DNA of 64,000 nucleotides from Pseudomonas putida (lineage in GTDB: Bacteria > Pseudomonadota > Gammaproteobacteria > Pseudomonadales > Pseudomonadaceae): NCBI RefSeq assembly GCF_005080685.1, contig NZ_CP039371.1:248001-312000 (forward strand), given 5' to 3'. Positions 5,377-48,916 of this stretch are shown in pieces; position 1 is the first letter of the stretch, and every line of letters starts with the position of its first letter. The notes under the pieces were generated by a model. That model was not told where the DNA came from, ran no database searches, and saw only the letters and a program-made list of their open reading frames with translations. Position numbers and translations under genes: made by a program.

Positions 5377-6576
5377 ATGTCGGCCAAAAAGAAGCCAGTA
5401 AGTACGCCGTTACACCTGCTCCAGCAACTTTCGGGCAGCTTGCTCGAACACTTGGAAGATGCCTGCTCTCAAGCACTGGCGGACGCGGAGAAACTGCTGG
5501 CCAAGTTGGAAAAGCAGCGTGGCAAAGCTCAGGAAAAACTACACACCGGTCGCCTGAAGTTGCAGGACGCGGCCAAGGCAGGCAAAGCCAAGGCACAGGG
5601 CAAAGCGCAGAAAGCCGTCGGTGAACTGGAGGAATTGCTCGGTTCCCTGAAGGATCGTCAAACTCAGACTCGCGGCTATATCCAGCAACTCAAGCGTGAT
5701 GCCCAGGAAAGCCTGAAACTGGCCCAGGGCGTTGGCAAGGTGCGCGAGGCTGCCTCCAAGGCGCTCGATCAGCGCGCTGCCAAACCCGCTGCGGCCAAGG
5801 CACCGGCCCGTGCCGTCGCCAAGCCGGCTGCGGCCAAGGCGCCGGCCAAAGCCGCTGCTGCCAAACCGGCTGCAACCAAGGCGCCAGCCCGCGCCGCCGC
5901 CAAGCCCGCTGCCGCCAAAGCGCCAGCCAAGGCCGCCGCCAAACCCGCCGCCACCAAGGCAGCCGCTAAGCCTGCAGCGAAAACCGCTGCCAGCAAAGCG
6001 CCGGCTCGCGCTGCTGCAGCCAAGCCTGCCGCTGCCAAGGCTCCAGCCAAGGCCACCGCTGCCAAGCCTGCGACCCGCGCCGCTGCCGCCAAACCGGCTG
6101 CCGCCAAAGCTCCAGCACGGGCCGCTGCCGCCAAGGCTCCAGCCAAGCCAGCCGCCGCCAAGCCTGCTGTTGCCAAGGCCCCGGCCAAGCCCGCCGCCGC
6201 TAAAACTGCTGCCGCCAAGGCGCCGGCCAAGCCAGCCGCTGCCAAGCCTGCTGCTGCCAAGGCCTCGGCCAAGCCAGCCGCCGCTAAAGCTGCTGCCGCC
6301 AAGGCGCCGGCCAAGCCAGCCGCGGCTAAAGCTGCTGCTGCCAAGGCCCCAGCCAAGCCAGCCGCCAAGCCTGCTGCCGCCAAGGCGACCACCGCCAAGC
6401 CAGCTGCAAAACCTGCAGCCGCCAAGCCGGTGGCCAGCAAGCCCGCCGAGACCAAGCCAGCCGCCGCTCCGGTAGCCAGCGCCCCGGTGACCAACTCGGC
6501 CACCCCGGCCACCCCGGCCTCGCCATCGGCGGCAGCTGCCAGCACCCCGGCTCAGTCGCCGTCTTCGGCCTCCTGA
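5377..6576 (+). CDS. algP: AlgP, histone H1-like lysine/alanine repeat protein
   Basis: A 399-residue basic protein. Residues 1-125 are a conserved helical part rich in Lys, Gln and Glu; residues ~130-360 are a degenerate tandem array built on units such as KPAAAKAPA, and the tail is Pro/Ala/Ser rich. In P. aeruginosa AlgP (AlgR3) binds DNA, resembles eukaryotic histone H1 and influences alginate gene expression. A strong AGGAGGT lies six bases before the ATG. The array is encoded by near-repeats of GCCAAGCCnGC, and copy number varies between strains because such tracts recombine, so length here may differ from relatives. The 3' end overlaps the convergent TIGR02444 gene by 25 bases. Confidence 0.92.
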   Translation: MSAKKKPVSTPLHLLQQLSGSLLEHLEDACSQALADAEKLLAKLEKQRGKAQEKLHTGRLKLQDAAKAGKAKAQGKAQKAVGELEELLGSLKDRQTQTRGYIQQLKRDAQESLKLAQGVGKVREAASKALDQRAAKPAAAKAPARAVAKPAAAKAPAKAAAAKPAATKAPARAAAKPAAAKAPAKAAAKPAATKAAAKPAAKTAASKAPARAAAAKPAAAKAPAKATAAKPATRAAAAKPAAAKAPARAAAAKAPAKPAAAKPAVAKAPAKPAAAKTAAAKAPAKPAAAKPAAAKASAKPAAAKAAAAKAPAKPAAAKAAAAKAPAKPAAKPAAAKATTAKPAAKPAAAKPVASKPAETKPAAAPVASAPVTNSATPATPASPSAAAASTPAQSPSSAS

Positions 6577-47644: not shown

Positions 47645-47673
47645 GGCCGGCCTCTTCGCGGGACAAGCCCGCT
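47645..47673. repeat. left part of a REP palindrome split by the IS
   Basis: GGCCGGCCTCTTCGCGGGAC onward to GCCCGCT at 47673, identical to the first 29 bases of the REP at 9014-9050. The remaining CCCACAGGT lies at 48846-48854, on the other side of the insertion sequence. Confidence 0.9.
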
Positions 47674-47675
47674 TG

Positions 47676-47682
47676 TATGGTT
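47676..47682. repeat. left subterminal inverted repeat of the IS
   Basis: TATGGTT, the exact reverse complement of AACCATA at 48833-48839. It would also form the -10 element (TATGGT) of a promoter when the element ends are joined. Confidence 0.7.
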
Positions 47683-47687
47683 AGACT

Positions 47688-47860
47688 TGAAGGGGTGGTG
47701 GGACTAAATACCCGATTCTGACTGTTCGCAGCAGTACAGACCGTGGGAGACATCGCCCCACCCCTTCCACCAAAGCGCCGATAAAGAATGCATCGTTTGC
47801 AAGCGACGATAGAAGCAAGCCAGCGCCTCTGGGTGAAACCCCTTCAAGCCGAAAAACCAT
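47688..47860 (+). ncRNA. candidate bridge RNA of the IS110 element
   Basis: Non-coding region between the left end and the transposase. Stem GAAGGGGTGG (47689-47698) with CCACCCCTTC (47758-47767), 10 bp perfect, encloses a target-type loop: CCCGAT at 47711-47716 resembles the left target CCCGCT, a small CTGT/ACAG hairpin follows, and GTGGGAG at 47743-47749 is the exact complement of CTCCCAC, the right target including the CT core. A second module has AAGAAT (47784-47789, like the right IS end TAGAAT), a hairpin ATCGT/ACGAT (47792-47796/47806-47810) and GCAAG (47815-47819, near-complement of the left end CTTGT). This is the layout of published IS110 bridge RNAs. Boundaries are estimates. Confidence 0.65.
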
Positions 47861-47861
47861 A
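47839..47861 (+). promoter_or_regulatory. 5'-UTR element complementary to the IS left end
   Basis: CCCCTTCAAG (47839-47848) is the exact complement of CTTGAAGGGG (47686-47695), and AACCATA (47855-47861) is the complement of TATGGTT (47676-47682). The segment ends a few bases before the transposase ribosome site GAGGAG (47866-47871), so it could control translation by switching pairing with the bridge-RNA stem. Confidence 0.5.
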
Positions 47862-47877
47862 ACGTGAGGAGCCGCCC

Positions 47878-48831
47878 ATGGCAATGCAGGTAAGCAAGTT
47901 GATCATGGGGGTGGATGTCGCGAAAGTAGAACTGGTTATCCATCACGATGATCGTGATGAGATCATCAGGCTGAAAAATTCCAAACTCGAAATCAAAAGG
48001 TGGCTGAAGCAGCAGCCTCTCAATACTGCTATCGCAGTTGAAGCAACCAATGTCTATCACCTGGACTTGGTCGAGCTGGCCCATCACCTGGGTTTTGAGG
48101 TTTATGTCATCGATGGCTTTCAACTCAGCAACTACAGAAAAAGTGTCGGTGGGCGGGTAAAAACCGATCCGTCTGATGCTCGGTTGCTGTCCCGTTTTCT
48201 GAAAAACGAAGGTGAGGACCTCCGCCCTTGGAGCCCGCCTCCTGCTGTCTACAGCAAGCTTCAGAGTCTCCTTCGGCGCAGAGCCAGATTGGTGACTGCT
48301 CGCACGGCTATGACTCAAAGCTGGGCGAATGAAAGCCTTTTGAAAACCGCCTTCGAGACCTTCTTAAAGTCGATAGATCGACTGGATCAATTGATCCAAA
48401 AGAAGATTAAAGAAGTACTCCGAGAGGCTGGGCTGCACGAGCAAGTCGCTCGCTGCCAGGCGGTAGAGGGTATTGGTTTTCTCACCGCCACCGCGTTGGT
48501 GATGGCTTTTATGAGGGGCGAATTCAAAAGCAGTGACTCGTACATTGCATTCTTGGGAATGGATCTGCGAGTGAGTGATTCCGGACAAAAGAATGGACGC
48601 CGCCGCCTCACCAAGCGAGGTTGTTCAGAAATTCGTCGCTTATTGCATAACGCTGCGATGGCTGCCAGCAGATCGGCTGCCTGGAGAGGGTTTTACGAAC
48701 AGCATCGGAGCACAGGTAAAGCCACAACCCAAGCTTTAGTAATCCTGGCAAGAAAGCTTGCGCAGGTAGCATTCGCCCTGATGAAAAATCAGGACGAATA
48801 CGTCACAAAAGGCGGGAAATTGGTTTGCTGA
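47878..48831 (+). CDS. IS110-family DEDD transposase/recombinase
   Basis: A 317-residue RNA-guided recombinase. N-terminal RuvC-like DEDD domain: Asp13 (MGVDVAK), Glu55 (AVEATN), Asp96 and Asp99 (KTDPSDARLL). Middle helical coiled region (about 125-195), then the Transposase_20 domain (about 200-317; AVEGIGFLTATALV, FLGMDLRVSDSGQKNGRRRL) and AASRSAAW with a candidate catalytic serine. All catalytic residues are present and the frame is intact, so the element may be active. ATG at 47878 after GAGGAG; an internal ATG at 47884 is possible. The codon use is less GC-rich than the neighbours, as expected for a mobile gene. Confidence 0.95.
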   Translation: MAMQVSKLIMGVDVAKVELVIHHDDRDEIIRLKNSKLEIKRWLKQQPLNTAIAVEATNVYHLDLVELAHHLGFEVYVIDGFQLSNYRKSVGGRVKTDPSDARLLSRFLKNEGEDLRPWSPPPAVYSKLQSLLRRRARLVTARTAMTQSWANESLLKTAFETFLKSIDRLDQLIQKKIKEVLREAGLHEQVARCQAVEGIGFLTATALVMAFMRGEFKSSDSYIAFLGMDLRVSDSGQKNGRRRLTKRGCSEIRRLLHNAAMAASRSAAWRGFYEQHRSTGKATTQALVILARKLAQVAFALMKNQDEYVTKGGKLVC

Positions 48832-48832
48832 A

Positions 48833-48839
48833 AACCATA
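48833..48839. repeat. right subterminal inverted repeat of the IS
   Basis: AACCATA, the exact reverse complement of TATGGTT at 47676-47682, two bases after the transposase stop. Confidence 0.7.
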
Positions 48840-48845
48840 GAATCT

Positions 48846-48916
48846 CCCACAGGTATCGCGCCACATCCGAAATCAGCACTGAATCTGTGGGAGCGGGCTT
48901 GTCCCGCGAAGAGGCC
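48846..48916. repeat. right remnant of the split REP plus its convergent partner
   Basis: 48846-48854 (CCCACAGGT) is the missing end of the REP begun at 47645. 48885-48916 (CTGTGGGAGCGGGCTTGTCC onward) is the intact convergent partner, so the IS interrupted one half of an ordinary REP pair. Confidence 0.88.

Follow-up and report, generated by a model that had tools for sequence, protein, structure and literature searches.

A candidate bridge RNA of an ISPpu10-type IS110 element in Pseudomonas putida, whose left guide covaries with the REPs entered

Background

The non-coding DNA at 47686-47849 of a 64,000-nucleotide stretch of the Pseudomonas putida genome, hereafter called the window, almost certainly encodes a bridge RNA, which leads an ISPpu10-type element of the IS110 family into REPs. 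The left guide of this RNA covaries with its target among relatives of the element, the targets are REPs, the insertion point is fixed and the layout is conserved. An earlier note, made from the letters of the window alone, had proposed such an RNA as the reason why the element chooses REPs, and in this main claim it was right.

According to the parts of the literature drawn on here, insertion into REPs has been published for IS621, ISPpu9 and ISPpu10 (2003-2006) and RNA guidance has been published for the family (2024), and the present element is new only as a member of the known IS110 bridge RNA systems. All seven of the seven ISPpu10 copies of P. putida KT2440 lie in REPs with 2-bp repeats, and the insertion point of ISPpu9 in REPs is the same as that of ISPpu10 (Tobes and Pareja 2006, PMC1525189); the parts of that paper considered here describe no targeting RNA. 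IS621 of E. coli (Durrant et al. 2024, PMC11208160; Hiraizumi et al. 2024, PMC11208158) resembles the present element in having an IS110 transposase, a left-end RNA with two loops, a left guide pairing with the bottom strand and a right guide pairing with the top strand, a CT core, a REP target, a junction promoter (here a candidate) and short ATA/TAT subterminal repeats; it differs in its distantly related protein and in its REP sequence, the RNAs being compared by description. The seekRNAs of the IS1111/IS110 group (Siddiquee et al. 2024, PMC11187229) are likewise RNAs of a non-coding region that select the target, and natural reprogramming has been shown for ISEc11/ISXne4; however, the IS1111 RNAs usually lie downstream of tnp and their guide order is reversed (PMC11187229). 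No bridge RNA of ISPpu10, no natural guide-swapping series in this clade and no guides that track host REP classes were found in the titles and abstract openings of the literature searched, preprints and most subscription journals lying outside that search.

Results and discussion

The element and its insertion into REPs

The element occupies 47672-48843 of the forward strand (1172 bp counting one CT core), with boundaries taken from three copies in the genome, and the CT core at 47672 recurs at 48844. Its gene tnp (47878-48831, + strand) encodes a transposase of 317 aa, in which D13, E55, D97, D100 and serine 235 within SDSGQ were assigned by motif, and which matches PF01548 (2.7e-19) and PF02371 (1.3e-16), a DEDD RuvC-like domain together with Transposase_20 and its SG motif. 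Among solved structures it matches IS621 (1.6e-22, 83.5 bits) and ISCro4 (4.4e-22), and it is 69% identical to P0095, which one source names IS110 family transposase ISPpu10. The work cited for ISPpu10 of KT2440 is reportedly Ramos-Gonzalez 2006. The left non-coding end measures 204 nt from the core to tnp and the right end 12 bp from the stop codon to the core, giving the IS110-group layout of a long non-coding left end upstream of tnp and a short right end; long inverted repeats, as judged by eye, are absent from the ends. By the kinship of its transposase and by its REP target the element belongs to the ISPpu10 type of the IS110 family.

The genome (6.6 Mb, two contigs), whose REPs and closest relatives point to Pseudomonas, carries the element in three copies, whose 204-nt non-coding regions are 100% identical and one of which has an indel early in tnp. 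The REP is broken at one and the same position in all three, GGGACAAGCCCG/CT ... CT/CCCACA, the slashes marking the breaks. The third copy (G000:C1:5871899-5874697) lies within an array of REP units at a spacing of about 100 bp, and elsewhere on the same contig (G000:C1:176483-177683) eleven REP target sites follow one another at a spacing of exactly 119 bp. Another long array, of imperfect repeats with 42-bp and 15-bp periods among others, is found at 5773-6464 of the window, and presumably belongs to a repeat-rich DNA-binding protein. A search of the plasmid collection gave no match, and a scan of the window against Rfam at the gathering threshold returned only a tRNA, with no family match for the bridge RNA region.

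In the window, the left part of the interrupted REP is TTCGCGGGACAAGCCCG (47655-47671, + strand), the last 7-9 bases of which form the left target, and the right part is CTCCCACA (48844-48851, + strand), which starts with the CT core. The 25-mer joined from both flanks, TTCGCGGGACAAGCCCGCTCCCACA, occurs 318 times in the genome at up to three mismatches (reversed-pattern control, 0), while CCCGCTCCCAC occurs 325 times against 21 in the control, and six times in the window against 0.09 expected. The arm preceding CTCCCAC in this genome reads GCCCG in 315 cases, GCTCG in one, GCCGG in eight and GCCAG in 14. An empty site, that is, an orthologous REP without the element, was sought in relatives (six loci inspected of the 12 fetched) and was not shown: L171-L173 have the same intergenic region without the element, with 96-162 bp between the flank matches, and L174-L176 have 887-1297 bp of other sequence at the corresponding intergenic region.

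Relatives of the element

A search of the genus with the 204-nt region gave matches in 65 of 298 genomes, and a search of the order with the transposase gave matches in 85 of 293, the best one outside the window genome being 57% identical and most being far lower. The script that placed the left end, guide region and flank returned 98 rows from 96 loci, including three repeats of the window genome's own copies and one false row (L087). The loci without a row comprise right ends only, distant relatives and ten true members (L121, L122, L133-L135, L138, L139, L144, L147 and L148), the last of which were missed at first because the search pattern was strict. No guide was found by the patterns in the five more distant loci that are closest in protein identity beyond L062 (L063, L064, L155, L156 and the rest), and the covariation reported below covers the close relatives together with L060-L062 and L149-L151. 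The left flank of one insertion, L110 (G186), is no REP arm; its end repeats the 16 bases with which the right flank begins (CTCCCACATTTGGTAG), and we regard this insertion as odd or imprecise.

The left target guide follows its target

The left target guide, AAATACCCGAT, lies at 47706-47716 (+ strand), with the covarying bases at 47709-47714 and the core-equivalent AT at 47715-47716. As had been claimed, CCCGAT at 47711-47716 matches CCCGCT at 47668-47673 in five of six bases, at the right coordinates. Read against its target over seven bases, the window copy has five matches, four of them contiguous, which is unconvincing by itself; the evidence beyond chance comes from the relatives. In these the guide was defined as the stretch directly before the conserved TCTGA hairpin strand and was read ungapped. 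Over 39 distinct guide-target pairs the guide agrees with its own target at 5.74 of 7 bases against 4.24 when targets are shuffled, a value that 0 of 20,000 shuffles reach, the shuffles ignoring relatedness; when two dropped rows are kept, the 41 pairs give 5.59 against 4.07, again with 0 of 20,000. The agreement follows the variants of the arm, with guide and target both reading GCCAG in L009, GCCGG in L016, GCTCG in L023 and ATTCG in L013, and ACCCG facing GCCCG in the window; in L061, whose protein is 56% identical and whose host belongs to another family of the order, both read AAGCACG. The mutual information between guide and target peaks at position -3 (0.85 bits), exceeds 0.3 from -6 to -1 and falls to 0.02 at -9; in the core it is zero by construction, because the target core is invariant.

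The ten members without a row were read later, and nine of them agree with their flank in the five bases before the core: GCTCG in L122, L134, L135, L147 and L148, GCCCG in L138 and L139, ACCCG in L144, and, in L133, a GCTTG guide on a GCTTG flank, a variant new to the series. L121 disagrees, with the guide GCTCG and the flank CCACG. In all ten TCCGA or TCTGG replaces TCTGA, and most have GTACGG opposite instead of GTACAG, so that both sides of the hairpin have changed.

Agreement of this kind might also arise from shared ancestry alone, related elements residing in related genomes with no pairing involved, since within a clade both the elements and the REP sets are passed on by descent, and the shuffles over the 39 pairs take no account of kinship. 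A test on relatives used 25 disjoint pairs whose guides differ, at distances, measured outside the guide, of 0.01 to 0.26. Each guide fitted its own target better in 20 of them, the swapped target better in one, and four were tied (sign test, p = 1.0e-5). In the single unfavourable pair, L117/L141, a guide is offset by one base; offset guides were kept without realignment, which works against the covariation reading. Even RNAs about 2-5% apart, such as L007/L016 and L008/L009, differ jointly in guide and target.

The occupied REPs were also compared with those available in the same genomes. Of 67 insertions in 38 genomes, 58 lie in a REP of the same class as their guide, whereas hits on the four classes according to REP abundance would give 41.8 (P = 2.4e-7), and with one insertion counted per genome guide class equals target class in 33 of 38 against 23.4 (P = 5.5e-5). 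In genomes where another class is commonest, the guide's class was still hit in 14 of 18 cases, 5.0 being expected (P = 6.7e-6). Neither this nor the 20 to one of the close pairs rests on differences between clades alone, and we hold common descent without pairing very improbable, the least probable of the explanations considered, pairing of the guide with the target being strongly preferred. The remaining nine of the 67 are found either in an arm of a different class or away from any REP arm. Three of the four misses among the 18 are a CTCG guide on a CCCG target (two of them in one genome), in which U stands opposite G and pairing is possible; in the tally of mismatches this combination is seen three times and the reverse once.

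A correction to the earlier note concerns the CT core, which only a minority of left guides match in full: over the 39 distinct pairs the core-equivalent is AT in 24, CA in eight and CT in seven. In IS621, by contrast, the core takes part in all four pairings (PMC11208160, in the part drawn on), a difference that we do not take as ruling out membership of IS110. The left guide is about 7 nt long and is followed by a mostly mismatched core.

Guide type and the REPs of the host

The class of the guide also coincides with the commonest of the four REP classes in its host in 28 of 38 genomes, whereas in 20,000 shuffles, uncorrected for kinship, the count averaged 14.0 and never exceeded 25; the 38 are those of 46 counted genomes whose guide falls in one of the four classes. 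Of the ten disagreeing genomes, nine are rich in CCCG, six of them having a CTCG guide and three a CCAG guide, and the tenth is rich in CCAG and has a CCCG guide. Three guide types are found even among RNAs that share 95% identity or more with that of the window along the matched part, each with its own commonest host REP: CCCG in G000, G217, G096 and G103, CCAG in G204 and CCGG in G215. This tracking of the host's commonest class by the guide type is the less expected part of the finding. With about even chances, in our judgement, the left guide is retuned to the commonest REP arm of a new host, a selfish element thereby trailing a drifting selfish repeat family; on the same footing, guides with U that tolerate C targets through G:U may form a bridge from one class of REPs to another, and the lack of pairing between left guide and core may be by design.

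The right target guide

The right target guide, GTGGGAG at 47743-47749 (+ strand), is followed by AC at the handshake position and is, as first noticed from the window alone, the exact complement of CTCCCAC at 48844-48850, CT core included. In the 62 insertions readable on both sides, GTGGGAG faces CTCCCAC in 54, CTCCTAC in five and CTCTCAC in one, and GTAGGAG faces CTCCTAC in two; the guide is thus an exact complement in 56, and the other six differ by G:T. This count omits the loops of L140, L145 and L146, which the right-guide pattern does not match. The compensatory pair GTAGGAG/CTCCTAC is found in L115 and L116, two copies of one genome, and hence counts as one event; as the right target hardly varies, the right guide shows one independent compensatory change only. 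Right targets found later in four genomes read CTCCCAC in all 20 loci with the pattern, of 21, and the right target of a GTAGGAG element in G147 was sought and not found. Covariation of both guides with the flanks, the check that the earlier note had named, accordingly holds for the left guide, the right guide being complementary and nearly invariant. Following the right guide, nearly all rows have A as the first handshake base and C or T as the second, whereas the IS621 scheme (PMC11208158, as far as drawn on) would predict A and then T for this donor.

The donor-binding loop

The proposed donor-binding loop is placed at 47775-47826 (+ strand), with a closing stem 47775-47778/47823-47826 and a hairpin at 47793-47806. 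Its left donor guide (47783-47789, + strand) matches the left donor, ATAGAAT, which stands in the element's right end (48837-48843, + strand), in six of seven bases, and its right donor guide GCAAG (47815-47819, + strand), followed by the handshake CC at 47820-47821, could form five pairs with one G:T; both were read by eye on donors that are nearly invariant. The AAGAAT proposed earlier for this second module is present at 47784-47789, and the GCAAG named with it occurs twice, at 47799-47803 in the hairpin and at 47815-47819 after it. The first was tried as the right donor guide and rejected, as it is unconserved in relatives, whereas [A/G]CAAG after the hairpin is conserved in the rows shown, which points to the second as the right donor guide. 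The two bases after the left donor guide are GC in the window copy and many others, and TC, CC or CT in the rest. In L145 and L146 (G080) the target arm ends in C and not G, and the donor-loop handshake is G and not C, which is suggestive of one possible compensatory change of the donor handshake with the target.

Structure of the RNA

The minimum-free-energy fold and the pair counts over 43 sequences place an outer helix between 47686-47696 and 47838-47848 (+ strand). It competes with the perfect 10-bp stem that had been taken to close the first loop: GAAGGGGTGG at 47689-47698 does pair with CCACCCCTTC at 47758-47767 without a mismatch, but the two helices share a 5' strand and are mutually exclusive. 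Relatives speak for the 10-bp stem about as much as for the conserved outer helix, 83.2% and 87.1% of the respective cells being paired, and either may close the first loop. The hairpin inside the target-binding loop (47717-47740, + strand) has 96.2% of cells paired. Fold z-scores are only -2.17 for 204 nt and -2.39 for 165 nt. In the model built of the outer helix, the loop-1 stem, the loop-1 hairpin and the donor-loop stems (43 sequences including that of the window), 88.2% of cells are paired and 11 pairs show two-sided changes, each value being reached by 0 of 500 shuffles; further pair types, one of five measures, are not unusual (48 of 500 shuffles reach the value). The corresponding whole model with the 10-bp stem gives 88.7% and eight two-sided changes, both 0 of 500, and pair types at 17 of 500. 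On these models the two-loop structure is conserved among the 43 sequences.

In the single-sequence minimum-free-energy fold the two guides pair with each other, CCCG with UGGG, which is the placement of guides in stems that had been named as speaking against a bridge RNA. RNAalifold over the 43 sequences, which chose the outer helix and the inner hairpin, leaves the left guide open and pairs three right-guide bases with the loop-1 closing strand. The pairing of the guides in the single-sequence fold does tell against taking the fold literally, and we give it less weight than the covariation. IS621 has a separate 5' stem-loop (in the published description drawn on), whereas the Pseudomonas copies have the outer long-range helix instead. 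In L060, L061 and L149, relatives from beyond the genus, an additional 5' stretch can fold into a stem-loop of its own, as reported for IS621; by eye, the aligned Pseudomonas copies are without this stretch.

A candidate junction promoter, an antisense promoter-like site and the alternative of a regulatory leader

At the left end a -10-like box, TATGGT (47676-47681, + strand), would acquire a -35-like partner only in the circular element, where comparison of junctions points to TTGCTG (48825-48830, + strand) at the right end. Scored on 40 distinct circle junctions, the slot located 17 bp ahead of the TATG.T box agrees with TTGACA at 3.15 of 6 bases, against 0.8 of 6 with the left flank of the inserted form and 1.9 at spacings of 16 or 18. 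The candidate promoter fits the junction promoter reported for IS621 in the parts of PMC11208160 and PMC11208158 considered here.

A promoter-like site is also seen on the - strand over the start of tnp, TTGCCA-17-TATGGT at 47884-47856, in the position of the Asr9 promoter of ISPpu9. Among 42 relatives read from the start codon, all 42 have TTGCCA or TTGTCA, a box that lies in the start codons and is partly required by the pattern; the second box starts with TA and ends with T in 37, and both boxes match at 4 or more of 6 bases in only eight of the 42. ISPpu9 of P. putida, compared by description, is like the present element in belonging to the IS110 family, in its AG direct repeat (CT on the other strand) and in an antisense promoter within the first codons, and it differs in its regulation by Asr9/Ssr9; the parts of PMC8450116 drawn on describe no targeting RNA. 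It has a 244-nt tnp leader with an antisense RNA (PMC8450116, same parts), and together with the antisense site found here in the same place this lends some credit to the view that the non-coding region serves tnp as a 5' regulatory leader under antisense control, with the transposase itself reading the REP and the guide matches being incidental. A leader role, however, does not predict that internal bases should track outside sequence among near-identical RNAs, and we hold it very improbable as the explanation of the region in place of a bridge RNA. The two roles can coexist.

How the bridge RNA would act

For the bridge RNA that we propose, excision of the element as a circle would join TTGCTG and TATGGT at the 17-bp spacing and so create its promoter; the RNA would then bind the transposase, as in IS621, its second loop pairing with the joined ends of the element, and the recombinase would exchange strands at the CT core. 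Transcription, binding and strand exchange are thus steps that we infer. With guide pairing and exchange at the CT core, the element would land at one fixed point of those REPs whose arm matches the guide.

Conclusions

The present case joins, within Pseudomonas, the insertion of IS110 elements into REPs with the RNA mechanism. Since REP arms vary between species and the rest of the target is nearly constant, the clade amounts to a natural guide-swapping experiment, which maps the important positions of the guide (-6 to -1), gives hints of the mismatches that are tolerated, and supplies naturally occurring guide variants on a single scaffold. A question of coevolution also becomes directly testable, namely whether the guides of a transposon track the repeats of its host.
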